From contig CALBAK010000002.1 in NCBI GenBank assembly GCA_937926445.1, positions 1 to 64,000 on the forward strand: a stretch of 64,000 bases of DNA, given 5' to 3'. The notes under the pieces were generated by a model. It did no database searches. It saw nothing but the letters and a program-made list of their open reading frames with translations, and was not told where the DNA came from. This DNA is from an uncultured Alphaproteobacteria bacterium (GTDB lineage Bacteria; Pseudomonadota; Alphaproteobacteria; Geminicoccales; Geminicoccaceae). The stretch's first letter is position 1, and each line of letters opens with the position of its first letter. Below, piece by piece: positions 1,385 through 35,815 of this stretch. A program made the translations under genes and the position numbers.

Positions 1385-4282
1385 ATGTTGAGGAAGCGGA
1401 GCAACGGGACGCCGGCACCGGGCGCTTTCGGCCAGCTGCGGGCGGCGCTTTCGGGCGACACGATCGATCGGCGCGGGTTCCTGCGCCGCTCCGGGGTCAC
1501 CGCCGGCGGTCTGGCGGCCGCCGCGGCCCTGTCGCCCGGCATGGTGACGCGCGCCCAGGCGCAGGCCCAGGTGGCCAAAGGCGAGATCAAGGAGGTCAAG
1601 ACGATCTGCACGCACTGCTCGGTCGGCTGCACGGTCGTGGCCGAGGTGCAGAACGGTGTGTGGATCGGCCAGGAGCCGGGCTTCGACAGCCCGTTCAATC
1701 TGGGTGCGCACTGCGCCAAGGGCGCCGCGGTGCGCGAGCACGCGCACGGTGAGCGTCGGCTCAAGTACCCGATGAAGCTCGTCAACGGGAAATACACCCG
1801 GATCTCCTGGGACCAGGCGATCAACGAGATCGGTGACAAGCTCCTCGAGATCCGCGAGAAGTCGGGACCCGACAGCGTCTATTGGCTGGGCTCGGCCAAG
1901 CACAGTAACGAGCAGGCCTATCTGTTCCGCAAGTTCGCCGCCTTCTGGGGGACGAACAACGTCGACCATCAGGCGCGGATCTGCCATTCGACGACCGTCG
2001 CGGGCGTGGCCAACACCTGGGGCTACGGCGCGATGACGAACTCCTACAACGACATCCAAAAGTCGAGGCTGATCTTCCTGATCGGCGGCAATCCGGCCGA
2101 GGCGCATCCCGTTTCGCTGCTCCACCTGTTGCGGGCGAAGGAGCAGAACAACGCACCCTTGATCGTCTGCGATCCGCGCTTCACCCGGACGGCCGCACAC
2201 GCCGACGAGTATGTCCGGTTCCGGCCGGGTACCGACGTCGCCCTGATCTGGGGCATCCTCTGGCACATCTTCGAGAACGGCTGGGAGGACAAGGAGTTCA
2301 TCCGCAAGCGCGTGTGGGGCATGGACCAGATCCGTGCGCACGTGAAGCAGTGGACCCCGGACGAGGTCGAGCGCGTCACCGGCGTGCCCGGCAGCCAGCT
2401 CAAGCGGGTCGCCATGCTCATGGCCAACAACCGGCCGGGCACGGTCATCTGGTGCATGGGTGGCACCCAGCACACCAACGGCAACAACAACGTCCGTGCC
2501 TATTGCGTGCTGCAGCTCGCCCTCGGCAACATGGGCGTTTCCGGTGGCGGTACCAACATCTTCCGCGGCCACGATAACGTCCAGGGTGCGACCGACATGG
2601 GCGTCACCGTGGACAGCCTGCCTGGTTACTATGGCCTGGCCGAAGGTGCTTGGAAGCACTGGGCGCGGGTCTGGAACGTCGATTACAATTATCTCCTCTC
2701 TCGCTTCGGTCCCAAGGGCGCCGACGACAAGACCCGCAAGGGGCTCATGGAAAAGGCCGGCATCCCGGTTTCGCGCTGGTTCGACGGTGTGCTCGAGGCG
2801 AAGGAGAACATCGACCAGCCGGACAACGTCCGCGCGATGATCTTCTGGGGTCACGCGCCGAACTCGCAGACGCGCCTGCCCGACATGAAGCGGGCGATGG
2901 AGAAGCTCGACCTTCTCGTGGTGATCGACCCCTATCCGACCGTGAGCGCGGTGCTGCACGATCGGACCGACGGGGTCTATCTCCTGCCGGCCGCCACCCA
3001 GTTCGAGACCCGCGGCTCGGTCACCGCGTCGAACCGCTCGCTCCAGTGGCGCGAGAAGGTTTTCGGGCCGTTCTTCGAGTGCAAGACCGACCACGAGATC
3101 ATGTATCTCTTCGCGAAGAAGTTCGGCTTCGCCGAGGAGATGTTCAAGAACATCAAGCTCGAGGGCAACGAGCCGAACGTCGAGGACATCCTGCGCGAGA
3201 TCAATCGCGGAACCTGGACGATCGGCTACACCGGCCAGTCGCCGGAACGCCTCAAGTTGCACATGGAGTATCAGAACACCTTCGACAAGGTGACGCTGCG
3301 GGCAGTCGGCGGTCCCTGCGACGGCGAGTATTACGGTCTGCCTTGGCCGTGTTGGGGCACGCCCGAGTTCAAGCACCCCGGCACCGCCAACCTCTACGAC
3401 ACCTCGCTGCCGGTGAAAGACGGTGGTTCGTGCTTCCGCGCCAATTTCGGCGTCGAGCGGGACGGCCAGACGCTCCTGGCCGAGGGCAGCTGGCCCAAAG
3501 GCTCGGAGATCGAAGACGGCTATCCCGAGTTCACGATGGAGATGCTGACCAAGCTCGGCTGGGACAAGGATCTCACCGACGCCGAGCGGGCCGAGATCGA
3601 GAAGGCGGGCGGGCCCAAGGCCAACTGGAAGACCGACCTCTCGGGCGGGATCATCCGGGTGGCCATCAAGCACGGCTGCGCGCCGTTCGGTAACGCCAAG
3701 GCGCGAGCTGTGGTGTGGAACTTCCCCGATCCGATCGCGCTCCATCGCGAGCCGCTCTACACGCCGCGGCGCGACCTGGTGGAGAAGTACCCGACCTACA
3801 CGGATCGCAAGCTGCACCGCCTGCCGGTGCTCTACAAGTCGATCCAGGACAAGGATTTCTCGAAGGACTACCCGATCATTTTGACCTCCGGGCGGCTCGT
3901 CGAATACGAGGGCGGCGGCGACGAGACCCGCTCGAATCCGTGGCTGGCCGAGCTCCAGCAGCACATGTTCATCGAGATCAACCCGTTCGACGCCAACAAC
4001 CTCAAGATCCGCGACGGCGCCTATGTGTGGGTCGAGGGCCCGGAGAAGGGCAGGGTCAAGGTCAAGGCGATGGTGACCGAACGGGTCGGCCGCGGCGTCG
4101 CGTTCATGCCGTTCCACTTCGGCGGCTGGTTCCAGGGCAAGGACCTGAGGTCGAAGTATCCGGCAGGTGCCGATCCCTATGTGCTCGGTGAATCGACCAA
4201 CACGGCACAGACCTACGGCTACGACTCGGTCACCCACATGCAGGAGACCAAGACCACGCTCTGCAGGATCTGGGCAGCCTGA
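1385..4282 (+). CDS. fdhA: Formate dehydrogenase catalytic alpha subunit, Cys-type
   Basis: A 965-residue molybdopterin oxidoreductase that oxidises formate to CO2. A Tat signal with R29-R30 (DRRGFLRRSG) implies export of the folded enzyme to the periplasmic side. An N-terminal [4Fe-4S] site is seen as C75-x2-C78-x3-C82 and C110. At the position occupied by selenocysteine in E. coli FdnG the codon is TGC (Cys200 in ARICHST), followed by the active-site His201, so this is a Cys enzyme. The C-terminal molybdopterin dinucleotide-binding domain covers roughly the last 130 residues. A good GGGAGG precedes the ATG. fdhB follows after 17 bases. Length fits the FDH-N/FDH-O type. Confidence 0.96.
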   Translation: MLRKRSNGTPAPGAFGQLRAALSGDTIDRRGFLRRSGVTAGGLAAAAALSPGMVTRAQAQAQVAKGEIKEVKTICTHCSVGCTVVAEVQNGVWIGQEPGFDSPFNLGAHCAKGAAVREHAHGERRLKYPMKLVNGKYTRISWDQAINEIGDKLLEIREKSGPDSVYWLGSAKHSNEQAYLFRKFAAFWGTNNVDHQARICHSTTVAGVANTWGYGAMTNSYNDIQKSRLIFLIGGNPAEAHPVSLLHLLRAKEQNNAPLIVCDPRFTRTAAHADEYVRFRPGTDVALIWGILWHIFENGWEDKEFIRKRVWGMDQIRAHVKQWTPDEVERVTGVPGSQLKRVAMLMANNRPGTVIWCMGGTQHTNGNNNVRAYCVLQLALGNMGVSGGGTNIFRGHDNVQGATDMGVTVDSLPGYYGLAEGAWKHWARVWNVDYNYLLSRFGPKGADDKTRKGLMEKAGIPVSRWFDGVLEAKENIDQPDNVRAMIFWGHAPNSQTRLPDMKRAMEKLDLLVVIDPYPTVSAVLHDRTDGVYLLPAATQFETRGSVTASNRSLQWREKVFGPFFECKTDHEIMYLFAKKFGFAEEMFKNIKLEGNEPNVEDILREINRGTWTIGYTGQSPERLKLHMEYQNTFDKVTLRAVGGPCDGEYYGLPWPCWGTPEFKHPGTANLYDTSLPVKDGGSCFRANFGVERDGQTLLAEGSWPKGSEIEDGYPEFTMEMLTKLGWDKDLTDAERAEIEKAGGPKANWKTDLSGGIIRVAIKHGCAPFGNAKARAVVWNFPDPIALHREPLYTPRRDLVEKYPTYTDRKLHRLPVLYKSIQDKDFSKDYPIILTSGRLVEYEGGGDETRSNPWLAELQQHMFIEINPFDANNLKIRDGAYVWVEGPEKGRVKVKAMVTERVGRGVAFMPFHFGGWFQGKDLRSKYPAGADPYVLGESTNTAQTYGYDSVTHMQETKTTLCRIWAA

Positions 4283-4299
4283 GGCAGGAGGAGACGACG

Positions 4300-4896
4300 A
4301 TGGCTCGCATGAAGTTCCTGTGCGACGCCGAGCGCTGCATCGAGTGCAACGCCTGCGTCACCGCCTGCAAGAACGAGCACGAGGTGCCGTGGGGCATCAA
4401 CCGCCGGCGGGTCGTCACCCTCAACGACGGCCGGCCCGGGGAACGGTCGATCTCGGTGGCCTGCATGCACTGCTCGGACGCGCCGTGTATGGCGGTCTGT
4501 CCGGTCGACTGTTTCTATCAGACCGAGGAGGGTGTGGTCCTGCACAGCAAGGACCTTTGCATCGGCTGCGGCTACTGCTTCTACGCCTGCCCGTTCGGAG
4601 CGCCGCAGTTTCCGCAGGCCGGCAATTTCGGCTCGCGCGGCAAGATGGACAAATGCACCTTCTGTGCTGGTGGGCCGGAGGAGGACGGCTCGGACGCCGA
4701 GTTCCGCAAATATGGCCGCAACCGGCTCGCCGAGGGTAAACTACCGCTCTGCGCCGAGATGTGCTCGACCAAGGCGCTCCTGGCCGGCGACGGTGACACG
4801 ATCTCGACGATCTATCGCGAGCGCGTGGTGGCGCGCGGCTTCGGCTCCGGCGCCTGGGGCTGGGGCACCGCCTACCAGCAGAAGGGCGGCGCCTGA
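4300..4896 (+). CDS. fdhB: Formate dehydrogenase iron-sulfur beta subunit
   Basis: A 198-residue ferredoxin-like subunit carrying electrons from FdhA to the cytochrome b subunit. Cluster cysteines are visible at C13, C16, C19, C23; C55, C58, C63, C67; C87, C90, C93, C97; with a fourth set from the CTFCAGG and CAEMCSTKAL segments, suggesting four [4Fe-4S] clusters. Unlike E. coli FdnH it has no C-terminal membrane helix, as in the shorter Fdh3-type subunits. AGGAGG lies eight bases before the ATG. It is followed by a strong hairpin at 4921-4946. Confidence 0.95.
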   Translation: MARMKFLCDAERCIECNACVTACKNEHEVPWGINRRRVVTLNDGRPGERSISVACMHCSDAPCMAVCPVDCFYQTEEGVVLHSKDLCIGCGYCFYACPFGAPQFPQAGNFGSRGKMDKCTFCAGGPEEDGSDAEFRKYGRNRLAEGKLPLCAEMCSTKALLAGDGDTISTIYRERVVARGFGSGAWGWGTAYQQKGGA

Positions 4897-21207: not shown

Positions 21208-21818
21208 GCCCACCGGTGCTCGGCGTGATCCTGGCGGGCGGGCTCGCCCGGCGGATGGGCGGCGGCGACAAGGCGCTTTTGCCGCTCGCCGGCAGCACGT
21301 TGCTCGATGCCGTGATCGCCCGCGCCCGGCCGCAGGTGCACACCCTGCTCCTCAACGCCAACGGCGATCCCGGGCGCTTCGCCCGCTTCGGTCTCGAGGT
21401 CGTGGCCGATCCTGTCGCGGGCTTCCCGGGGCCGCTCGCGGGTGTGCTCGCGGGGATGGAGGCGGCGGCCGCGCGGAACCCGCCTCTGCCCTGGGTCGTG
21501 AGCCTCGCCGCCGACACGCCCTTCTTTCCGGCCGACCTCGTCCCCCGGATGCTCGCGGCGATCGACCGCGAGGGCGCGGCGCTCGCCTGCGCCGCCTCGG
21601 GCGGACGGACGCACCCCGTCTTCGGCCTCTGGCCGACCCGGCTCGCTCCCGATCTCCGCCGCGCCCTGCTCGAGGAGGAGCTCAGGAAGATCGACGCCTG
21701 GACGGCCCGCTATCGGCTCGCCGTGGTCGGCTGGCCCCGCGAGCCTTTCGACCCCTTCTTCAACGTCAACACGCCCGAGGAGCTGGCCGAGGCGGAGCGG
21801 CTGGCGCTTCGCACCTGA
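21204..21818 (+). CDS. mobA: Molybdenum cofactor guanylyltransferase
   Basis: A 204-residue nucleotidyltransferase that attaches GMP to molybdopterin, producing the bis-MGD form used by formate dehydrogenase. The GTP-binding motif [20 protein letters not shown] (residues 7-26) with its Gly-rich loop and Lys is typical, as are [20 protein letters not shown] and the LAADTPF metal site. It starts at GTG 21204, overlapping the DUF29 stop. Genomic pairing with fdhD supports dedication to formate dehydrogenase. Confidence 0.95.
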
Positions 21819-21828
21819 GCGACGCGGC

Positions 21829-22851
21829 TCAGGGCGTGCCCTCGCGCAGGAGCTCGCGGACCGTGGCCGCGATGCCGCGTGCGGTGAGGCCGTAACGCTC
21901 CTGTAGCGTCGGTACCGCGCCGCACTCGATGTAGCGCATCGGGATCCCGACCCGGCGCAGCGGCCGATGGAGTCCTGCGCCGTAGAGCGCCTCGACGACC
22001 CGGGTACCGAGCCCGCCCTCGACGATGTGGTTCTCGGCCGTTACCAAAAGGCGCACCGAGCGGGCGAAGTCGACCACCGCCGCCGCGTCGAACGGCACGA
22101 GGCAGGGGACGTGCAGCACCGCCACCCCGAGACCCTGGCGGGCGAGGAGCTCGGCCGCATCGAGCGCCCGTTCGGTGACGAGCCCGGTCGCGACGATGCC
22201 GACCTCGCCGCCCGAGCGAAGCAGCCGCGCCTCGCCGAATGCGAAGCGGTGCGAGGCGGGATCGACCACGACCGGCACGTTGCCGCGCTGGATGCGCAGA
22301 TAGGTCGGCCGCGGCGCCTGCGCCCAGGCCTCCACCACCTGCGCGAGCTCGGTGGCGTCGCACGGGTCGACCACCGCGAGCCCCGGCACCGCGGCCATGA
22401 GCGCCAGATCCTCGATGGCCTGGTGCGTGGCCCCGTAGCCCGTGGTGAGCCCGGGAAGCCCCACCGCGATCAGCACCGGAAGGCCGGTCTTGGCCACCTG
22501 TATGGCGATGAAGTCGAACGCGCGCCGGGTCGCGAACACGGCGTAGGTCGTGGCCACCGGTAAGAAGCCGGTCTTGGCGAGCCCGGCCGCGGCGCCCACG
22601 AGGGCCTGCTCGGCCATGCCGAGATTGTAGAAGCGGTCGGGAAAGGCCTCGGCGAAGGGCAGGAGGTCCGTGTATTTGGCGAGATCGGCGGTGAGCGCCA
22701 CGATCCGCGGCTCCCGCTTGCCCGCTTCCACGAGCGCCGCGCCGAACGGCGCCGTCACGAACGGCCGGTGCCGGATCTCCTCGAGCTCGCCCATACCCTT
22801 GGTGTGTACGGGCTGCGGCCCGGCGGCGAACGGATCGGCTCGAGTCGTCAC
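21829..22851 (-). CDS. Transketolase C-terminal subunit
   Basis: A 340-residue protein covering the pyrimidine-binding and C-terminal domains of transketolase (RPFVTAPFGAALVEAG, FYNLGMAEQALVGAAAGLA, TYAVFATRRAFDFI). The catalytic Glu that activates ThDP is in NLGMAEQ. GTG 22851 gives 340 residues; an ATG at 22794 after MGELEE would give 321 and has AAGGGT close by, so the start is uncertain. Its partner N-terminal half is at 26435-27307, with five amine dehydrogenase genes between. The pair should assemble into one ThDP enzyme moving two-carbon ketol units. Confidence 0.92.
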   Translation of the reverse strand: MTTRADPFAAGPQPVHTKGMGELEEIRHRPFVTAPFGAALVEAGKREPRIVALTADLAKYTDLLPFAEAFPDRFYNLGMAEQALVGAAAGLAKTGFLPVATTYAVFATRRAFDFIAIQVAKTGLPVLIAVGLPGLTTGYGATHQAIEDLALMAAVPGLAVVDPCDATELAQVVEAWAQAPRPTYLRIQRGNVPVVVDPASHRFAFGEARLLRSGGEVGIVATGLVTERALDAAELLARQGLGVAVLHVPCLVPFDAAAVVDFARSVRLLVTAENHIVEGGLGTRVVEALYGAGLHRPLRRVGIPMRYIECGAVPTLQERYGLTARGIAATVRELLREGTP

Positions 22852-22908
22852 GACACGGTCCGGTTCACGCCCGCACCTCGCTCGTTCGCGGCGTTCCGGG
22901 CGGGTTTC

Positions 22909-23418
22909 TCACCGTCCGGCCACCGAGCGCGGTTCCGGGCTCGTGCCGATGCCGTCGTCGTCGGGAGCGAGCAGGCCCCGGGCGCGCAGTTCGGCGAGCA
23001 TCCGATCGCGAAGGCCCTTGCGGTCCTCGAGCGGGCGCAGGCGCGCGGCCGCAATCTCCTCGACGGTGAACGGGGTAAAGTCCGGCGCCACCGTGTCCCC
23101 GCCGTAGGTCGCCAGCACCCAGTTGAGCACGCCCGTGAGCCGCGCGTCGTCGAGCACGCTCCGGGCCACGCCGGGCACGCGCATGAGATAATCGCGGCCC
23201 TCGGGCACATGGGTGAAGAGCCCGACGAACCCGTCGAGCCGCGGCACGTGGCCCGGCGTGCCCTGCCCCCAGAGGCCATGGCAGCCCTTGCACTTCAACG
23301 CGTAGTCGAGCCGCGCGCCATCGTGGCTCTCAAGCGGTCGACCCGGCGCGTAGTCGGCGGCCGGCGCGGGAGCCGCCGCCACCGCGAGAAGGAGCGCCGC
23401 GAGGCGGGCGGCGCGCAC
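22909..23418 (-). CDS. Mono-haem cytochrome c of the amine dehydrogenase cluster
   Basis: A 169-residue exported cytochrome with signal peptide (RLAALLLAVAAAPAPAA) and one haem site C43-x2-C46-H47 (CKGCH). The segment after the haem (RLDGFVGLFTHVPEGRDYLMRVPGVA) and the length resemble the small cytochrome encoded next to aromatic amine dehydrogenase genes in Alcaligenes faecalis, as I recall it. It starts at GTG 23418, four bases after the light-chain stop. It is the likely electron acceptor of the quinoprotein, replacing the amicyanin or azurin used elsewhere. Confidence 0.85.
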   Translation of the reverse strand: MRAARLAALLLAVAAAPAPAADYAPGRPLESHDGARLDYALKCKGCHGLWGQGTPGHVPRLDGFVGLFTHVPEGRDYLMRVPGVARSVLDDARLTGVLNWVLATYGGDTVAPDFTPFTVEEIAAARLRPLEDRKGLRDRMLAELRARGLLAPDDDGIGTSPEPRSVAGR

Positions 23419-23422
23419 CGGT

Positions 23423-23953
23423 TCAGGCCTTGCCGATCAGCACCTGGCTCGAGCAGTGGTAGACCATCGAGGGAGCGCCGAAGCACCAGATGATGTCGTT
23501 GTTGAGCTCGGGCCGGTAGGACGGCATCTCGCCCTCGGTGCCGAGGCAGGGACAGAGGCCGCAGGAATCTTTGCCGCAGCAGTCCTGGTAGGCGATCAGG
23601 TAGGCCTGCCCGTCGTCGGGGTTGATGCAGGTGCCGATCCAGCTCGTGGGCGAGGCGTAGGAGCCGGGCGGGCACTTGTTCATGGTGCCGCCGCAGCACT
23701 CGCAGAGATAACCGTCCGACGAACAGTACCGCCAATAGTTGCACTGCGTCGGATCCTTGGTCTGCGCGGTCTTGGCGAACTCGTTGGCGTGCGCGAGCTT
23801 GGCCCGGCCGCTCTTGTCCACGGGCAGAAGCGGGAGGATCGCACCACCGGCGAGCACCGTGCCGAGGCGGGCGAGGATGCTCCGCCGCGAGCTGCGCTGA
23901 GCGAGCTGGCGCGCCGCGCTCTCCATCATCCGATCGAACGCATCGAGGATCAT
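23423..23953 (-). CDS. aauA: Quinoprotein amine dehydrogenase light chain (TTQ)
   Basis: A 176-residue small subunit carrying the tryptophan tryptophylquinone cofactor. The two Trp residues expected to form TTQ are W105 (SPTSWIGTC) and W156 (NNDIIWCFGA). A Tat-type leader (SSRRSILARLG, R23-R24) precedes the mature part. It has 14 cysteines in the mature region, with CCGGT and CCGKDSCG segments like aromatic amine dehydrogenase, while the C-terminal TEGEMPSYRPEL-IIWCFG part is closer to methylamine dehydrogenase. ATGA overlap with the D gene. Amine substrate not determined. Confidence 0.93.
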   Translation of the reverse strand: MILDAFDRMMESAARQLAQRSSRRSILARLGTVLAGGAILPLLPVDKSGRAKLAHANEFAKTAQTKDPTQCNYWRYCSSDGYLCECCGGTMNKCPPGSYASPTSWIGTCINPDDGQAYLIAYQDCCGKDSCGLCPCLGTEGEMPSYRPELNNDIIWCFGAPSMVYHCSSQVLIGKA

Positions 23954-24603
23954 GCCCGGCTCTCCTCCTGCTGCGTCGGGGGTGCGGCCGCCGCACCGTT
24001 CGGCCGGCCGCGCGGTGTTCCCAGAAGATAGTCCTGCATCGAAGCGAAGCCCGTCTCGTGCGCGACGAGCAGGCTCTCGAGATGCTCGCGAGAGTTGACG
24101 ATGCCCTTGGCCCGCACCTTCCCTTCGGCGTCGATCAACACCGCGTGGGGCAGCTTGCCGATGCCGAGCTGCAGGCCGACGATCGGCGAGACGACGAAGG
24201 GCAGGTCCTGCACGCCGTGCTCGCGCGCCATGGCACGATGTGCCTCGCGCTCACCGTCGCCCACGAGCACGAGCTCGACCGCCTTGCGCTCGCTCCGCGC
24301 GAAGGAGCGGACCGCCCCCATGAGTTTCTTGCACATGGGGCAGACCGGCGAGACGAAGAGCAGGAGCGTACCCCGCCCGTCCGCCCGCCGACCACCCAGA
24401 TGGACCTTGCGCCCCTCGAGGTCGAGCAGGTCGAAGGTAGGCGCGGGATCGCCGATCTCGATCGCGGTAGGCGTGGTCATCGCCCCGAGCGGGGCGACCC
24501 GCTCGTGCAGCACGCCCACCTGGCGGGCGAGCGCCAACACCGTCACCGAGAGTGCCGCAACGACGATCCAGAGCAGGAGATTGGAGACGAGGAGCGGGTC
24601 CAA
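23950..24603 (-). CDS. mauD: Amine dehydrogenase maturation protein MauD/AauD
   Basis: A 217-residue membrane-anchored thioredoxin-like protein. One N-terminal helix (NLLLWIVVAALSVTVLALA) and a periplasmic thioredoxin fold with active-site C-P-M-C in SPVCPMCKKL. MauD is needed for light-chain stability and probably for making its many disulfides. It starts at TTG 24603 and overlaps the light-chain start by four bases. The C-terminus is extended by a Pro/Ala/Gln-rich tail. Confidence 0.92.
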   Translation of the reverse strand: MDPLLVSNLLLWIVVAALSVTVLALARQVGVLHERVAPLGAMTTPTAIEIGDPAPTFDLLDLEGRKVHLGGRRADGRGTLLLFVSPVCPMCKKLMGAVRSFARSERKAVELVLVGDGEREAHRAMAREHGVQDLPFVVSPIVGLQLGIGKLPHAVLIDAEGKVRAKGIVNSREHLESLLVAHETGFASMQDYLLGTPRGRPNGAAAAPPTQQEESRA

Positions 24604-24606
24604 GGC

Positions 24607-25149
24607 TCAGGCCCTCCGCGGTCGACGGGCGGGAGCCAGTCCCGCGAGGCGGCTGAAAGCGGCGTAGAGGGCGAGCAGCGAACCTGCGGCGAGCGCGATC
24701 GTCGCCAGATCGACCACGGCCGGCGGGGCCGCTCCCTCGGCTGCGAGCAGCGGCAGGGCGAGGGCCACGAGCACCAGATTGCGGGCGACGAGCGGCCAGC
24801 CGATCCGCTCCTTCTGCCGGCCCAAGAAGCAGCCACAGTCGATCTCGGTCCGGCCGCGGGCGACGTTGACCGCCATCGCCAGCGCGAAGAGCAGGAGAAG
24901 GCCGGCCGCGAGCGCCCCGCCGAAAGGTCGCGTGGCCGGGAAGAGCACGAGGAGCCCGGCCGCGACCTCGAGAGCCGGCAGCGCCCGCGCCGCCGGTCGC
25001 ACGAGGGACTCGGGCAGGAGCCGATAGTCGGCGAGGACGCCTTCGAACTCGTCCATCGCCCGCAGCTTGCTGGCCGCACTCGGGAGGAAGATGCCGGCGA
25101 TCAGGAACGCCGCGGTCCAAACGAGAGCTGGGCTCGCGAGGAGGTCCAA
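24607..25149 (-). CDS. mauE: Amine dehydrogenase membrane protein MauE/AauE
   Basis: A 180-residue integral membrane protein with four to five hydrophobic helices and a periplasmic cysteine segment (EIDCGCFLGRQKE) between them, as in the MauE/DoxX-like family that works with MauD in disulfide formation in the light chain. It starts at TTG 25149 and ends four bases before the mauD start. Gene order B-E-D-A is conserved with known mau and aau operons. Confidence 0.9.
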   Translation of the reverse strand: MDLLASPALVWTAAFLIAGIFLPSAASKLRAMDEFEGVLADYRLLPESLVRPAARALPALEVAAGLLVLFPATRPFGGALAAGLLLLFALAMAVNVARGRTEIDCGCFLGRQKERIGWPLVARNLVLVALALPLLAAEGAAPPAVVDLATIALAAGSLLALYAAFSRLAGLAPARRPRRA

Positions 25150-25158
25150 GGCGCCGCC

Positions 25159-26352
25159 TCACTCGCCCATGGTGTAGAGGAGATAGGGCGAGATCCCCAC
25201 ACCCTCGCGGTGGCCCTTCTCCTCGCCGGTCGTGGCGTCCAGCACCTGGAGCATGGCCGTCTCGGTGATCGCGAAGAGGAGCGGCTTCTCGTCCTGGCTC
25301 ACGGTCATCGAGTGGCTGTGGTGCGGCAGCTTGTGGCGCGCCACACGCTGTTTGCGTTCGACGTCGAAGACCCAGACCTCCTCGCCGGCCTGCTTGTGGG
25401 TCCAGGGTCCGCCCTCGTGCATGAGGACGAAGAGCCGCTTGGAACCGGCGTGGAAGGCGGCCAGCTGCCAGCCACCCGGCCGCCAGCCCTCGTCGCCCGC
25501 GCCCTGCAGCTTCCAACGCTCGCCGACCTTGGGCATACCGTCGAGGCTCACGGGGTAGACCCAGCCGTCGTAGGAGAGGAAATAGCCCTGTTTGCTCGGC
25601 CGGTGAATGGCGGCGTGCTCGAACACCGGATCTTTCTCGGCATCGAAGAAGGGCTCGCCGAGCTCCGTCTTGGTGGCCCGGCCACTCGCATCGAAGGTGA
25701 TGTGCAGGAACCGGCCGTCCGGGCAGAGCGAGGCGACACTCGTGTCGCCGGTCGGGAAGGCCAAGGAGCAGCCCTGGGTGTCGAGTTCGCCCAGATATTT
25801 CATCTCCTCGACGTCGACGACGCTCAAGGAGAAGGCCGGATCCATGTTGAAGGAGAGGAGGTAGCGCCCGTCGCTCGTGAGCGTGGCGTTGTGCTTCTTG
25901 GGCACGACCAGGAAGCGGCCTTTCGGCAGGACGACCTCGCCCACCGGATCGAGCGTCTTGGTGTCGAAGGCGGTGACGACGTCGGTGCGCGTGCCGCGCG
26001 AGCCGCGCGACCAGTAGGTCTCTGCGAGCCACAGCCGGCTCTTGTCGTGGGCGAGCACGGCATTGGCGGTGTAGCCGCCGTTGATCATGCCCTTCACGGC
26101 GAGCCCGTCACCGTCGAAGATCCAGACCTTGCTCACCACGAGGTAGGGGAAGACCGGCTCGAGGACGTAGACCCACCGTGGACTCGGCTCGGGCAGAACC
26201 AGCGTGGGGTGATCTTCTTGGGTCGGTTGGGCGGCGGCCGGAGGCATCTGCGCCGGAATGGCCGGTGCCTGCTGCGCCTGGACCACCGCGGCCGCCGTCG
26301 CGAGCCAGAGCCCGATCAGTCCCGAGACGATTCGCCCACCCTCGACCGGCAT
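25159..26352 (-). CDS. aauB: Quinoprotein amine dehydrogenase heavy chain
   Basis: A 397-residue periplasmic large subunit with a signal peptide (RIVSGLIGLWLATAAAVVQA) and a seven-bladed propeller of the MauB/AauB type (PRWVYVLEPVF, WIFDGDGLAVKGMINGGYTA, HHSHSMTVSQDEKPLLFA). It forms the alpha2beta2 enzyme with the TTQ light chain. A strong GGGGAGAGGAGA precedes ATG 26352. An open frame extends upstream to 26910 but is antisense-like and rejected. The 82-base gap before the gene holds a possible -10 element. Confidence 0.94.
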   Translation of the reverse strand: MPVEGGRIVSGLIGLWLATAAAVVQAQQAPAIPAQMPPAAAQPTQEDHPTLVLPEPSPRWVYVLEPVFPYLVVSKVWIFDGDGLAVKGMINGGYTANAVLAHDKSRLWLAETYWSRGSRGTRTDVVTAFDTKTLDPVGEVVLPKGRFLVVPKKHNATLTSDGRYLLSFNMDPAFSLSVVDVEEMKYLGELDTQGCSLAFPTGDTSVASLCPDGRFLHITFDASGRATKTELGEPFFDAEKDPVFEHAAIHRPSKQGYFLSYDGWVYPVSLDGMPKVGERWKLQGAGDEGWRPGGWQLAAFHAGSKRLFVLMHEGGPWTHKQAGEEVWVFDVERKQRVARHKLPHHSHSMTVSQDEKPLLFAITETAMLQVLDATTGEEKGHREGVGISPYLLYTMGE

Positions 26353-26394
26353 GGGTCTCCTCTCCCCGTTGCGCACGCCATCCCCTGGCCCGGA

Positions 26395-26400
26395 ACTATA
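26395..26400 (-). promoter_or_regulatory. Possible -10 element upstream of the amine dehydrogenase genes
   Basis: On the minus strand TATAGT lies about 43 bases before the heavy-chain ATG, in a locally AT-richer stretch (GACTTTGCGTATAGT). No good -35 box is at standard spacing. If real, the amine dehydrogenase genes have their own promoter inside the transketolase operon. Confidence 0.25.
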
Positions 26401-26434
26401 CGCAAAGTCCGTGCCGACGGGTAGCAGCCCGCTA

Positions 26435-27307
26435 CTACGAGCCGGCCGACCATCGGCTGCCCGCGCCTTCGCCACGGCCTGCCTCGAGCTCGTCCAGGAT
26501 GGCCCCCCACTCGTCCGGGTCGACCCGGATGAAATGCGCCTTCTCGCGCCTCTCGAGCCGCGGCACGCCCTTACCGGGCAGCGTCCGGCAGACGATCGCC
26601 TTGGGTCGGCCGCCGGCCTTACGCGCTCCCTCGAGTGCGGCCACCACCGCCGCCATGTCGTTGCCGTCGATCTCGACGGTGTCGAAGCCGAAGGCGCGCC
26701 ACTTGTCGGCCAAGGGCTCGAGCCGGACGACGATCCTGCCGTCCGCCTGGATGCCGTTGGCATCGACGATCGCCACGAGATTGTCGAGGCCGAAGGTGGC
26801 GGCCGCCATGGCGGCTTCCCAGCTCGAGCCCTCCTGGCACTCGCCGTCGCTGAGCTCGCAGAAGACCCGCGCCTCGCTGCCGGCGCGGCGCAGGCCGAGC
26901 GCCATGCCAACGGCCACCGGCAGGCCGTGGCCGAGCGAGCCGCCGGTGACCTCGACCCCGGGCGAACTGTCGAGCGTGCTCATGTCGAGCCGGCTGTCGT
27001 CCATAGCGAAGGTCGAAAGCTCCTCGCGCGCGATCGCGCCCGCTTCGGCGAGCGTCGCCCAGAGCAGGATGGCATAGTGGCCGGTCGAGAGCACGAAGCG
27101 ATCGCGGCCCTCCCAACCGAGATCGTCCGGATCGAAACGCAGCTCGTGGAAATAGAGGGCCGCCATCACGTCGGCGAAGCCGAGCGCTTGGCCGAGATAG
27201 CCCTGGCCCTTGCCGGTTGCGAGCTCGATGCAGGTGCGGCGGATGGCGTGCGCGTGAGCATGCAGCGCCTTGAGGTCGGCGGTGGCGGGCGGGTGGTTGC
27301 GGCGCAT
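26435..27307 (-). CDS. Transketolase N-terminal subunit
   Basis: A 290-residue ThDP-binding half of transketolase. Signatures: KGQGYLGQALGFADVMAALY near residue 33, GSLGHGLPVAVGMALG and the ThDP/Mg motif LSDGECQEGSSWEA (GDG replaced by SDG) ending with NLVAIVDANGIQADG. Split two-gene transketolases are common in bacteria but the halves are normally adjacent; here they are separated by about 3.6 kb. Upstream by 18 bases is the remnant of a short-chain dehydrogenase gene, pointing to an original sugar or polyol catabolic operon. Confidence 0.93.
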   Translation of the reverse strand: MRRNHPPATADLKALHAHAHAIRRTCIELATGKGQGYLGQALGFADVMAALYFHELRFDPDDLGWEGRDRFVLSTGHYAILLWATLAEAGAIAREELSTFAMDDSRLDMSTLDSSPGVEVTGGSLGHGLPVAVGMALGLRRAGSEARVFCELSDGECQEGSSWEAAMAAATFGLDNLVAIVDANGIQADGRIVVRLEPLADKWRAFGFDTVEIDGNDMAAVVAALEGARKAGGRPKAIVCRTLPGKGVPRLERREKAHFIRVDPDEWGAILDELEAGRGEGAGSRWSAGS

Positions 27308-27325
27308 GGGCGGGCTCCTCGGCGG

Positions 27326-27882
27326 TCAGTCCTTGTCGAGGCCGCCCGTGAGGTTGAGCCGGGCGGCGGTCATGTAGCCGGGCGCGTCGAGCACGAGCCA
27401 GACGACCATCGCCGCCATCTCCTCGGGATCGGTGCGCCGGCCCAACGGGATCTGCGCGTTGCGCTCGGCGCGGAAGGCGTCGAGATCCCCCGGCCCTGCG
27501 CCTTCATGATGCGGCCGGCAGCGGCATCGGCGAGGGCGCAGGCGCGCCCGTTGACGAGCAGAGCCGCCTCCCAGGCCTCCGCCGTTGGCTCGAGGAAGGG
27601 CTCGACCGGTGCCGCGGCGGCGCACTGGACCAGCACGTCGAGCCCGCCGAGGCCTTCGGCCGCCGTCTCCACCATGCGCTCCGGGCCCTCGGCGGTGGCC
27701 AGATCGACGCCGATCGCGAAGCTCGCGGGCGCCCGCTCGCGGCAGTCGAGCGCCACCCGCTCGGCGCCCTCGAGGTCGCGGTCGGCGACCGCCACGGCGC
27801 AGCCCCGCGCCGCCAGCGCCCGCGCCGCCGCGGCACCCAGACAGCCGGCGCCCCCGCTGACGAGCACGGCCCGCCCGGCCAT
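27326..27882 (-). pseudogene. SDR-family dehydrogenase remnant, deleted and frameshifted
   Basis: The first part from ATG 27882 encodes a Rossmann NAD(P)-binding region (VLVSGGAGCLGAAAARALA) through to GRIMKAQGRG. The C-terminal part, IPLGRRTDPEEMAAMVVWLV to NLTGGLDKD, is in a different frame. Between them about 70-80 residues expected in an SDR are missing, including the catalytic Ser, Tyr and Lys. It therefore has both an internal deletion and a frame change and cannot be active. It lies just upstream of the transketolase N-terminal gene. Confidence 0.85.
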
Positions 27883-27939
27883 CGTCGCCCTCCCCGGCTC
27901 ACCGCGTCGAGCCTCGCCGGTGCCAACCGCTCGGTCAAC

Positions 27940-27960
27940 GGCCGTCGGCGCCGGACGGCC
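27940..27960. promoter_or_regulatory. Inverted repeat in divergent intergenic region
   Basis: GGCCGTC and GACGGCC arms flank the seven-base palindromic GGCGCCG between two divergent genes, both now pseudogenes. It may be an operator or hairpin. The rest of the 194-base gap shows nothing else I can support. Confidence 0.3.
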
Positions 27961-28076
27961 ACGCGAGAGCGGGGGGCGCGCACGGTTGCCGTCCCGCCGG
28001 TGCCTCCCCGTGGTCCGTCGCCGAACGAAACCGGATGGTCCGCGCGCAGACGAAACCGGGCCGGGGAGAAGCGAGC

Positions 28077-29113
28077 ATGAGCCGGATCCCACGCAGGCGG
28101 CCGACGCGGCTCGGCGCGAGCGCAGCGGTGGGAGCGCTCGCAGCGCCCGTGGTGGCGCGCGGCCAAGGCAAGATCCAGCTGCGGATCCAGACCCATCACT
28201 CGGCCGAATCGGTGCCCGGCAAGATTTTCCTCCGTTTCTGCAAGGACGTCGAGGAGATGTCCGGCGGCCGGGTGCAGATCGAGAGCTTCACCTCTTCGGC
28301 CGTGGTCAAGTCGGTCGAGACCTTCGATGCCGCCTCGACCGGCATCCTCGACGGCGACATGACGGGTGCCGCCTAACAGCCCGGCAAGGACGCCGCCTTC
28401 CAAGCCTTCGGCGACATGCTGGGCGGCTACGATTCGCCCGACCGGATGCAGGCCTGGCTCGACGTGGGCGGCGGGCGCGAGATCGCCGACCCGCTCTACG
28501 GCAAGTTCGGCATGTATCTCGTGGGCTTCCGGGGCGATCCACCGGAATCGCTGGTTTCGACCAAGCCCCTGCGCGGGTTGGCCGATCTCAAGGACTGGAA
28601 GTTCCGCTGCCCGCCGGGCATGCGGACCGACATCTTCGTCAAGCTCGGCGCCAAGCTCGTGGTCATGGACTTCGGCGAGGCGTTCACCGCCCTCCAGACC
28701 AAGGCCGTGGAAGGGGCGGACGCCGGCACGCTCGCGGTCAACAAGGCGCTCGGCCTCTACGAGATCGCGAAGCACACGACCTACCCCGGCTTCCATTCGA
28801 TGCCGCAGGACCATCTCGCGATCAAAAGGGCCAAGTGGGAGAGCCTGCCGGCCGACCTGAAGGCGATCGTGCGGGTGGCGCTCGAGAAGGTCGCCCTCGA
28901 CCGCTGGACCGCGACCAACCTGGCCGGCGCGGAGGTCGCCCGCGAGCTCGTGGCCAGGGTGTGACACTGCACGACTGGTCGCCCGCGGACAAGCTGGTCT
29001 ATCGGGAGCAGGCACAGCTAGTCTGGCAGAGCTGGGCACAAAAATCCTCCTTCGCCAAGCAGGCCTTCGAAAGTTCGATCGCTTTCATGAAGCGGATCGG
29101 CGTGCTCGGCTGA
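28077..29113 (+). pseudogene. TRAP substrate-binding protein dctP, nonsense and frameshift
   Basis: From ATG 28077 the frame encodes a DctP-type protein (IQLRIQTHHSAESVPGKIF) until a TAA at 28374, at a place where relatives have Tyr. The same frame then continues with GKDAAFQAFGDMLGGYDSP, LADLKDWKFRCPPG and FGEAFTALQTKAVEGADAG to a TGA at 28962. There the homology moves to another frame by an apparent one-base loss (VTLHDWSPADKLVYREQA) and ends at 29113. The total would be about 345 residues, a full-length DctP. Confidence 0.88.
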
Positions 29114-29141
29114 GCCGACCGGACGCGCCGGCGAAGGGACA

Positions 29142-29165
29142 CGGGCGGGGTCGCGACCCCGCCCG
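29142..29165 (+). terminator. Perfect 24-base palindromic hairpin
   Basis: CGGGCGGGGTCG is followed directly by its complement, giving a 10-base stem with a CGCG loop, 28 bases after the dctP remnant and 31 before dctQ. Hairpins at this place are common in TRAP operons, where the binding protein is made in excess. A short pyrimidine tract (CTTCCTGT) follows. Confidence 0.55.
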
Positions 29166-29196
29166 CTTCCTGTCGGAAACGAAGTCGAATCGGGCC

Positions 29197-30102
29197 ATGA
29201 CCGAGCGGCGGACGATCGTCGATCGCTTCACGATCGTGATCTCGAAGGTGGCGATGCTGCTATTCGGGGTGATCGTGGTCGCCACCTTCTACGAAGTCGT
29301 GATGCTTTATCTGTTCGGCTCGCCCACGATCTGGGCCAACGAGCCGTCCCTGATGGTAACCGGCATCGGCTATCTGTTCGCCGGCGTCTACGCCATGCAG
29401 CGACGCGAGCACATCCGCATCACCCCACTCTACGACCTCGCCCCGCACCGCCTCAAGCGGTTCTTCGACGTCGTGGCGCTCGTCTGCGTGCTCGCCTTCG
29501 CGGTCGGCATGGTGGTCGGCGGCTGGACCTCGGCCTGGCGCTCGCTCTCCACCTTCGAGCGCTTCGGCACGGCCTGGGACCCGCCCTTCCCGGCGCTCCT
29601 CAAGCCGCTCATCCTCCTCACCACCGTGCTGATCGCGATCCAAGCAGTGAACAATTTCCTCGCTAACCGGCGGCGCAGGGGCGGAGGCGATGGGTATCGA
29701 GACGATCTCGATCCTGCTGTTGGCGGGCTTCCTTCTCTTCCTCGCCGCCGGCGTGCCGATGGCCTTCGCCTGCGGCATGCTCGGCGTCACCCTGGCCTGT
29801 GCCGAGTTCGGTCTGCCCGACCTCGGACTCTTGATGCAGCGCATCTATGCGCTCTGCACCGAATACGTCCTGATCTCGGTGCCGATGTTCATTCTGATGG
29901 CCTCGCTCATGGAGCGCTCGGGCCTCGCCAAGGACAAATACGACGCGCTCGACGCCTGGCTCGGGCGCGTGCGCGGCGGTGTCGGCGTCGTGGCCTTGGT
30001 GATGGCGATCGTCTTGGCCGCGATGTCGGGCATCATCGGCGGCGAGATCGTGCTCCTGGGTCTCGTCGCCCTTTCGCGGATGCTGCGTCTCGGCTAGAAT
30101 AA
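29197..30102 (+). CDS. TRAP small permease dctQ, probably lost its stop
   Basis: Residues 1-160 form a four-helix DctQ protein (VAMLLFGVIVVATFYEVVML, SLMVTGIGYLFAGVYAM, DVVALVCVLAFAVGMVVGG, ILLTTVLIAIQAVNNFLAN). It should end near 29690, where dctM starts, but no stop is present and the frame runs 413 bases into dctM in a different frame, adding about 140 Arg-rich non-homologous residues. A small indel near the end of the gene is the likely cause. It sits between two other damaged TRAP genes, so the operon is probably dead. Confidence 0.65.
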   Translation: MTERRTIVDRFTIVISKVAMLLFGVIVVATFYEVVMLYLFGSPTIWANEPSLMVTGIGYLFAGVYAMQRREHIRITPLYDLAPHRLKRFFDVVALVCVLAFAVGMVVGGWTSAWRSLSTFERFGTAWDPPFPALLKPLILLTTVLIAIQAVNNFLANRRRRGGGDGYRDDLDPAVGGLPSLPRRRRADGLRLRHARRHPGLCRVRSARPRTLDAAHLCALHRIRPDLGADVHSDGLAHGALGPRQGQIRRARRLARARARRCRRRGLGDGDRLGRDVGHHRRRDRAPGSRRPFADAASRLE

Positions 30103-30994
30103 GCGAATCGCCATGGGCTCGGTCTGCGCCGGCGGCTCGCTCGGCACCATGATCCCGCCCTCGATCGTGCTCATCGTCTACGGGCTGATCACCGACACGC
30201 CGATTTCTTCGCTCTTCACCGCCGCGATACTGCCCGGCTTGCTCCTGGGCGGGATCTACATCGCCTACATCCTGGTCCGGGTGCGGTTGAATCCGGCGCT
30301 CGCCCCGCTGGTCGAGGATGCCGGTCCGCCGCTCTCCTTCGCTGCCAAGCTCGCCGCTTCGAAGGGACTGCTCGGCCCGATTCTGCTCGTGGTCGTCGTG
30401 TTGGGCTCGATCTATGGTGGCATCACGTTCATCACCGAGGCGGCCACCATGGGTGTGGTGGGCGTACTCGCCCTCATCGTCCTGCGGGGCGAGTTCCGGT
30501 TCGCCCTCCTGCGGGAAGCGTTCGACCAGACCCTCCGCTCGGTCGGCATCCTGCTCTGGGTGACCTTCGGCGCCTCGACGCTCATCGGCGCCTACACGCT
30601 CGCCGGCGGTCCGCGCTTGATCGGCTCGCTCATCACCGGGCTCGAGATCGCATCGATCCTGATCGTGCTCCTGATGATGCTGGTCTTTCTCTTCCTCGGC
30701 GCTTTCATGGACTGGATCGGCATCTCGCTTCTCTGCATGCCGATCTTCGTCCCCATCATCAAGCAACTCGGCTACGACCCGATCTGGTTCGGCATCCTCT
30801 TCTGCATCAACATGCAGGTCTCGTTCCTGTCGCCACCGTTCGGGCCGGCCGCCTTCTATCTCGAGAGCGTGGCTCCACCCGGCACCGAACTCGTCGAAAT
30901 CTTCAAGAGCTTCGGGCCGTTGGTGGCGATGCAGATCCTGGTGCTGGCGCTCGTCCTCGCGTTCCCGGGCCTGGCACTGTGGCTGGTCCGCTGA
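29690..30994 (+). pseudogene. TRAP large permease dctM with in-frame TAG
   Basis: A DctM-type membrane protein of about 434 codons interrupted by one TAG at 30095-30097. Both sides are in the same frame and homologous: MRLLGLVAL-type segment ALSRMLRLG before the stop, GSVCAGGSLGTMIPPSIVLI after it. Relatives have Tyr at this position, so a Tyr codon mutated to TAG. All other helices and the SFLSPPFGPAAFYLES motif are intact. With dctP also broken, the transporter is non-functional unless the stop is read through. Confidence 0.85.
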
Positions 30995-34120: not shown

Positions 34121-35815
34121 ATGGCCGAACAGCCGAGCGACATCGAGATCGCCCGCGCGGCATCCCTGCGGCCGATCGAGGAGGTCGCGGCCGAGCTCGG
34201 CATCGAGGCGGCGGCCCTCGTCCTCTACGGCCGGCAGATCGCCAAGCTCGACCTCGCCTGGATCGCCGGCCTCGAGAAGCGGCCGCGGGGCCGGCTCGTC
34301 CTCGTCACCGCGATCACGCCCACCCCAGCCGGCGAGGGCAAGACCACGACCACGATCGGGCTCGGCGATGCGCTCCGTCGGCTCGGGGCGCGCGCCGCGA
34401 TCTGCCTTCGAGAGCCCTCGCTCGGTCCCTGCTTCGGCATGAAGGGAGGGGCCACGGGTGGCGGCTGGGCCCAGGTCGTGCCCATGGAGCGGATCAACCT
34501 CCACTTCACGGGCGACTTCCACGCCGTCGGCGCCGCCCACAATCTGCTCGCGGCGATGGTGGACAACCATCTCCACTGGGGCAACGAGCTCGGTCTCGAC
34601 CCTCGGCGGATCCTCTGGCGGCGGGTGCTCGACACCAACGACCGGGCGCTGCGCTCGATCGTGCTCGGGCTCGGCGGGCCGGTCAACGGTGTGCCGCGCG
34701 AGGCCGGGTTCGACATCACCCCAGCCTCGGAAGTGATGGCCGTGTTCAGCCTCGCCACCGACCTCGCCGACCTCGAGGCGCGGCTCTCGCGGCTCGTCGT
34801 GGGCCTGACGCGCGAGCGCCGACCGGTCGGCGCGGGCGAGCTCGAGGCCGCGGGCGCCATGACGGTGCTGCTCGCCGACGCCCTCGCCCCCAACCTGGTC
34901 CAGACGCTCGAGGGCACGCCCGCCTTTGTCCACGGCGGGCCCTTCGGCAACGTCGCCCACGGCTGCAACAGCCTGATCGCCACCCGCACGGCCCTCGCTC
35001 TCGCCGACTGGGTGGTGACCGAGGCCGGTTTCGGGGCCGATCTCGGGGCCGAGAAGTTCTGCGACATCAAGTGTCGGATCGGCGGTCTCGAGCCTGCTTG
35101 CGCGGTGCTCGTGGCGAGCGTGCGGGCGCTGCGGCACCATGGCGGGGCCGCCAAGGAAGCCCTCGCCCGGCCCGATCCGCGGGCCGTGGAGCGGGGCCTC
35201 TCGAACCTCGAGCGGCACGCCCGCAATCTTGCTCGGTTCGGATTGCGCACGGTGGTGGCGCTCAACCGTTTCGAAGGGGACGGCGAGGAGGAGCTCTCGC
35301 TCGTCGAGGCCTTCTGCCGCGACCGGCTCGGGCTCGAGGCGGTTCGTTGCAGCCACTTCGCCGAGGGCGGGGCGGGTGCGCTCGAGCTCGCCCGCCGAGT
35401 GCGCTCTCTCGCCGAGGCGGCTAGCGGCGACGAGGGTCGGCGGTTCCGCCCGCTCTATCCCGATGGGATGCCGCTCCTCGAGAAGGTGCGGACGATCGCC
35501 ACCCTGATCTACGGGGCCGAAGACGTCGCGGCCGAGCGGGCGGTGCGCGAGCGGTTCGCCGAGCTCGAGGCGCAGGGCTTCGAGAATCTGCCGGTCTGCA
35601 TCGCCAAGACTCCCTACAGCTTCTCGACCGATCCCTATCTGCGGGGCGCGCCGACGGGCCACGTCCTGCCGATCCGCGAGCTGCGCCTTTCGGCCGGGGC
35701 CGGCTTCCTCGTGGTCCTGTGCGGAGCGATCGACACCATGCCGGGCCTGCCGCGCCGGCCGGCGGCGACCCGGATCCGGCTCGACCGGACGGGACGGATC
35801 GAGGGGCTCGGCTGA
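34121..35815 (+). CDS. fhs: Formate-tetrahydrofolate ligase
   Basis: A 564-residue enzyme that makes 10-formyl-THF from formate, THF and ATP, close to the family's 555-560. The ATP-binding loop is [10 protein letters not shown] at residues 68-77, followed by the conserved [19 protein letters not shown] and [20 protein letters not shown]. The C-terminal region keeps [22 protein letters not shown] precedes the ATG. It converges with a dimethylglycine dehydrogenase-like gene, and with the fdh operon it places formate at the centre of this region's metabolism. Confidence 0.97.

Follow-up and report, generated by a model that had tools for sequence, protein, structure and literature searches.

An amine dehydrogenase cassette nested between the halves of a split transketolase-like gene pair in a genus of Geminicoccaceae

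Gene order at the locus and its conservation in the genus

The DNA analysed here (hereafter the window) is a stretch of 64,000 nucleotides from an uncultured alphaproteobacterium of the family Geminicoccaceae (GenBank assembly GCA_937926445.1, contig CALBAK010000002.1, positions 1 to 64,000). On its minus strand, seven open genes occupy positions 21829-27307 in the order tktN-mauB-mauE-mauD-mauA-cyt c-tktC, so that a quinoprotein amine dehydrogenase cassette separates tktN from tktC, which encode the halves of a split transketolase-like enzyme. A first-pass annotation made from the sequence alone had proposed this order, with all genes intact on one strand, and profile searches bore it out. 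The tktN gene (26435-27307) encodes the thiamine diphosphate (ThDP)-binding PP-domain half (PF00456, 140 bits; nearest PDB entry 6yak). The cassette begins with the heavy chain of a tryptophan tryptophylquinone (TTQ) amine dehydrogenase, mauB-like (25159-26352; PF06433, 195 bits), and continues with a mauE-like membrane redox protein (24607-25149; PF07291, 113 bits), a mauD-like thiol-disulfide protein (23950-24603; TIGR02661, 205 bits, above the cut-off), a mauA-like light chain (23423-23953; PF02975, and TIGR02659 at 223.5 bits against a cut-off of 196.85) and a c-type cytochrome (22909-23418) carrying a CKGCH motif and matching PF00034 just below the cut-off. The last gene, tktC (21829-22851; nearest PDB entry 6yaj), supplies the Pyr and C-terminal domains (PF02779, 115 bits; PF02780, 88 bits), so that the PP domain stands on one chain and the Pyr and C-terminal domains on the other. 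The tktN-mauB gap measures about 82 bp when mauB is started at the ATG at 26352, chosen behind a GGAGAGGAG stretch, and the remaining intergenic gaps range from -4 to 57 bp.

The genus was sampled through six Geminicoccaceae genomes from hot-spring bacteria (the window and loci L033-L037). The seven-gene nested order was present in all six, including the single-contig complete genome G005 (AP024683), and because of this recurrence it is neither an assembly artefact nor the product of chance. Comparison of the six species shows purifying selection on each of the seven genes, with mean pN/pS ratios from 0.13 (mauA) to 0.42 (mauE). The short gaps noted in the first-pass annotation hold for five of the six genomes, where 57-128 bp separate the cytochrome gene from tktC; in G001 (L033) the two genes are parted (1081 bp) by an antiparallel gene for a xylose-isomerase-like TIM-barrel protein (PF01261, L033 8852-9935). 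Protein trees of the tkt halves disagree with those of the mau genes and of the flanks in the genus loci. Recombination between the halves and the cassette was considered on account of this conflict (approximately unbiased tests) and is not claimed, as synonymous divergence is even along the locus.

Separate occurrence of the two modules

The transketolase halves belong to a subfamily marked by GQGY and KYTD motifs, here termed Y-type, of which no characterised member was found. We examined 23 Y-type loci outside the genus, spread over several phyla (L058-L060, L091-L098, the six Geminicoccaceae loci L144-L149, and L157-L162 from six annotated plasmids of Alphaproteobacteria, Gammaproteobacteria and Actinomycetota). 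In all 23, tktN and tktC are adjacent and no amine dehydrogenase genes stand beside them, in keeping with the earlier premise that the halves of two-gene transketolases are normally neighbours; the nested order itself, found throughout the genus, occurs in none of them. The usual neighbours of the halves in most of these loci are a short-chain dehydrogenase/reductase (SDR) gene and/or a transporter of the tripartite ATP-independent periplasmic (TRAP), ABC or MFS type, TRAP relatives adjoining the split genes in L098. A tblastn search with the focal TktN returned 711 plasmid records, a figure that includes other transketolase types. No methylamine dehydrogenase (MADH) light chain was detected in eight other alphaproteobacterial genomes holding the closest tkt matches, using a query that gave matches in other genomes. 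Within the genus, the nested pair is the sole strong match to the Y-type in G000 and G005.

The inner genes likewise occur on their own. Other Geminicoccaceae genera (L038-L045) and other members of the class (L151-L156) have clusters of mauBEDA and the cytochrome gene without tkt halves; in L151 and L152 these are adjoined by an aldehyde dehydrogenase-like gene, assigned by sequence reading only. In at least four further Geminicoccaceae genomes (G006, G017, G020 and G026) a Y-type tkt pair occurs in one place and the cassette, complete or cut off by a contig end, in another. Adjacent halves with the amine genes elsewhere, which the first-pass annotation had named as evidence against its own proposal, are therefore encountered at the family level and not within the genus, where all six loci are nested. 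The family also contains two-gene mauB-mauA loci without adjoining mauE or mauD (L051, L052, L007 and L012).

The identity of the dehydrogenase was assessed from both of its chains. MauA has an RR-type leader, conserves both TTQ tryptophans and the reference cysteines in alignment to 3c75, and scores above the TIGR02659 cut-off, as a TTQ light chain of methylamine dehydrogenase should. MauB reaches 202 bits against TIGR02658, below the MADH equivalog cut-off of 454. In a tree of concatenated MauA and MauB, the six focal enzymes form one clade whose nearest relative is the tkt-free L038 (support 100). The Geminicoccaceae group to which they belong is the sister of the true MADHs and is distinct from enzymes resembling aromatic amine dehydrogenase (AADH). 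A second TTQ cluster present in the genus (L049/L050/L171), accompanied by a MauG homologue, groups with true MADH; in G000 it lies on contig C10 (L049, L171), and the complete genome G005, with a single light chain, lacks it. Because the second cluster, and not the focal one, groups with true MADH, formaldehyde cannot be assumed to be the focal product, and methylamine, named in the first-pass annotation as a source of formaldehyde, is no more than a possible substrate. The cytochrome gene, which adjoins mauA in the BEDA-cytochrome clusters of other genera as well, encodes the probable electron acceptor of the dehydrogenase. No MauG gene was found in the focal cluster, and a CCP_MauG match lies elsewhere in each of the six genomes. 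Two other genomes, G017 and G019 (L026/L041, L009/L051, L012, L024/L042), have TTQ dehydrogenase genes and no CCP_MauG match, and TTQ maturation may proceed there without MauG.

Control elements, active site and genomic context

Comparison of the six tktN-mauB gaps revealed a palindrome followed, 19 nt on, by a hexamer starting with TA in every locus. In the window the palindrome GTAGYAGCSGGCTGCTACC (26420-26438, minus strand) is unique, with 0.06 expected, and the hexamer reads TATAGT and is promoter-like; together with an intervening GG-N10-GC box (26402-26416, minus strand) they make up a putative operator/promoter of the cassette at 26402-26438. A palindrome resembling this one, again with a spacing of 19 nt, stands before the tkt-free mauBA genes of L051 (at 6568) and L052 (at 4510). 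Because the element is conserved in all six loci and is also present before mauBA genes that lack tkt neighbours, we infer that the cassette carries its own putative operator and promoter. A sigma-54 reading of the GG-N10-GC box was considered and not adopted: its spacing is perfect in six of six loci, but the box by itself is not significant and was not seen by eye in L051 or L052. It is to be noted that a sigma-70 scan of 21600-28200 yielded no promoter-like site and that the element emerged only from the six-genome comparison. A GATCCTG(C/T)TA-like box, read by eye before tktC in L033, L034 and L035, suggests that tktC may have a start of its own. Given the promoter-like element before mauB and the reverse-strand gene before tktC in one species, a single seven-gene transcript appears doubtful and is not the simplest reading, whereas in the five other species transcription from the mau promoter probably continues into tktC.

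Active-site residues were mapped by alignment to E. coli TktA, whose numbering is used throughout. The focal pair, like its Y-type relatives, retains the ThDP/metal and catalytic residues His66, Asp155, Asn185, His261, Glu411 and His473. TktN carries the changes His26 to Tyr and His100 to Ser, and TktC the changes Arg358 to Thr (variable), Ser385 to Tyr, His461 to Leu and Asp469 to Tyr. The canonical set for ketose phosphates is thus incomplete, with the C1-hydroxyl residue His100 lost and the phosphate site reduced from four residues to Arg520. This pattern is common to nearly all Y-type enzymes (L099 has it in part only, and L158 carries Phe at 385), and apart from minor variation at residues 91 and 358 no active-site position distinguishes the focal pair from its amine-free relatives. 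Wild-type transketolases as a rule require a donor with a C1 hydroxyl and work best on phosphorylated substrates, and the E. coli enzyme has been engineered towards a pyruvate donor by H100L and towards aromatic aldehydes by S385Y/D469T/R520Q (PMC10787763). As the residues for C1-hydroxyl and phosphate contacts are changed, the Y-type enzymes probably have no preference for ketose phosphates as donors, a point against dihydroxyacetone synthase chemistry.

Possible fates of the aldehyde carbon were surveyed in the six genus genomes. No Dak1 (PF02733) was detected in any of them by a search that gave strong matches in the family genomes G006 and G011. Hexulose-6-phosphate synthase (HPS) produced only weak matches below the cut-off, the one in G000 being ribulose-phosphate epimerase, and no class-III alcohol dehydrogenase equivalog scored above the cut-off. 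Fae was found in three of the six genomes, so that neither it nor the class-III alcohol dehydrogenase offers a consistent formaldehyde route. The RuBisCO large subunit is encoded in five of the six; in G000 the RuBisCO genes are adjoined by a full-length transketolase, separate from the split pair, and lie near ribulose-phosphate epimerase. Oxidation of the aldehyde carbon and refixation of the resulting CO2 would be the most likely route.

Upstream of tktN, the window contains a broken SDR gene (27326-27880, minus strand), whose match lacks query residues 169-237 and changes frame, and, divergent from tktN, the TRAP transporter genes DctP/DctQ/DctM (28035-30994, plus strand). SDR, DctP and DctM are disrupted by deletion or frameshift and in-frame stops, through either decay or draft-assembly errors, whereas L034, L036 and L037 have unbroken copies of the SDR and TRAP genes. 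Farther away lies a formate-dehydrogenase-like molybdopterin oxidoreductase with its Fe-S partner (1385-4896).

Origin of the arrangement and comparison with known systems

We propose, with a probability of about 0.65, that, before the genus diversified, a split-transketolase operon already in place took up an aau-like cassette, and that the two modules work independently. The outer module would be an accessory carboligase, elsewhere a two-gene unit usually near SDR and transporter genes; the inner one would be a TTQ amine dehydrogenase cassette bringing its own control element, which came between the halves and was then retained. In the periplasm, the dehydrogenase would oxidise methylamine or another amine to aldehyde and ammonia and pass the electrons to the cytochrome; further oxidation would be the most likely fate of the aldehyde carbon, with the CO2 refixed by the Calvin cycle, and TktN-TktC would have substrates of its own in the cytosol, probably non-phosphorylated ones. 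This reading is preferred because each module is found without the other (the halves in 23 of 23 outside loci, the BEDA-cytochrome clusters elsewhere in the family and the class, and both apart in four family genomes), because the promoter-like element precedes mauB in six of six loci and tkt-free mauBA in two, because an antiparallel gene parts the cytochrome gene from tktC in G001, because the active site of the focal pair is essentially that of its amine-free relatives, and because the genus combines the absence of Dak1 and of HPS above the cut-off with RuBisCO in five of six genomes. The first-pass annotation had itself offered an alternative, in which an aau-type cassette was inserted in a tkt operon, and this fits better than its preferred proposal.

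Several observations weigh against a simple merger. Nested order in six of six species and purifying selection on all genes go beyond what would be expected of a neutral accident. The tkt halves also persist where SDR and TRAP are broken (the window) or absent from the locus (L033, L035), so their retention is independent of these neighbours. The arrangement may therefore bring some benefit, perhaps co-regulation, as these points hint, and tktC could be read from the mau promoter given the short gap before it in five of six loci. Furthermore, the family yielded no member of the same tkt sub-branch whose tktN-tktC site is empty; the direction of the merger is thus only presumed, and the absence results rest in part on draft genomes.

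The benefit could be purely regulatory, with tktC or both halves placed under amine control because both modules are useful in the same nutrient conditions and with no metabolite handed over. The genus-wide conservation, the purifying selection and the short cytochrome-tktC gaps speak for such a linkage; the separate element lies before mauB only, the reverse-strand gene of G001 precedes tktC, and the box before tktC in three loci suggests an independent start, and we regard this explanation as possible though unlikely. A metabolic coupling in which TktN-TktC joins a non-phosphorylated, perhaps aromatic, aldehyde to a two-carbon unit from a donor lacking a C1 hydroxyl, such as pyruvate, is more doubtful. 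It would account for the native Ser, Tyr and Tyr at the positions altered in the engineered H100L, S385Y and D469T enzymes (PMC10787763) and for the survival of the halves beyond SDR and TRAP; but these residues are shared with amine-free relatives and so did not arise for amine use, the compartments do not match, and in L151/L152 it is the aldehyde dehydrogenase-like gene that adjoins the cassette. Its fuller version, in which a pyruvate-type carboligase was recruited in the genus to capture the amine-derived aldehyde, giving an amine-to-acyloin pathway with tktC under the amine operator, is slightly less probable again.

The unit originally proposed, resembling the xylulose monophosphate (XuMP) pathway, would have the dehydrogenase make formaldehyde from methylamine and a co-transcribed TktN-TktC fix it with xylulose 5-phosphate as a dihydroxyacetone synthase (DHAS). 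Gene order, the nearby formate-tetrahydrofolate ligase gene (34121-35815) and fdhD lend themselves to it, and a bacterial DHAS is reported for Mycobacterium sp. JC1 in work cited in PMC4505118. We nonetheless judge it very improbable: Dak1 was found in none of the six genomes, the true MADH with its MauG homologue is the second cluster and not the focal one, and the transketolase lacks equivalents of His100, Arg358, Ser385 and His461 for C1-hydroxyl and phosphate recognition (PMC10787763). Moreover, the aldehyde would be made in the periplasm, as leader and family indicate, enzymes of this tkt type occur widely where amine genes are lacking, and the common transcript is doubtful. A misjoined assembly, conceivable in a draft of 120 contigs with broken adjoining genes, is refuted by the identical order in six independent assemblies and keeps virtually no weight.

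The merger of two modules thus implies that a split-enzyme operon tolerated, and kept genus-wide, the insertion of a complete second module with its own control element, an order for which no earlier report was found in the literature searched. The analysis also exposes a widespread split transketolase-like subfamily with native changes at positions engineered in E. coli transketolase (H100, S385, D469), which is the more interesting lead. Coupling to the amine enzyme, if true, would amount to a new route for the assimilation of amine carbon, though the evidence does not require it.

Among known amine systems, the mau clusters of Paracoccus and Methylobacterium (L165, L168) share the mauBEDA order and the TTQ tryptophans and cysteines of MauA with the focal cassette, but they also carry mauF, amicyanin, mauJ, a MauG/cytochrome c peroxidase gene and napGH where the focal cassette has only the cytochrome c, and their MauB is about 31% identical and falls in a separate clade. 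The aau cluster for aromatic amine dehydrogenase in Alcaligenes faecalis, in which a small monohaem cytochrome c comes after BEDA and mauF/G/L/M/N are lacking, matches the focal cassette by gene content only; focal MauA and MauB score higher against MADH than against AADH chains in the PDB. Canonical DHAS is a single chain that uses xylulose 5-phosphate. The likeness of the focal locus to it lies in a transketolase-superfamily enzyme near a possible aldehyde producer, whereas the focal enzyme is split and has changed C1-hydroxyl and phosphate contacts, in a genus in which no Dak1 was found. The closest counterpart of the outer module is the split transketolase of Carboxydothermus (ChTK; PMC7661550), whose chains divide the PP domain from the Pyr and C-terminal domains in the same way and are the best PDB matches of both focal halves (6yak, 6yaj), the ThDP/metal residues being retained in the focal pair. 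ChTK keeps the GHPG and GH histidines (E. coli His26 and His100) and a serine at 385, whereas the focal pair has Tyr, Ser and Tyr, and within our sample only the focal genus has amine genes inserted between the halves.

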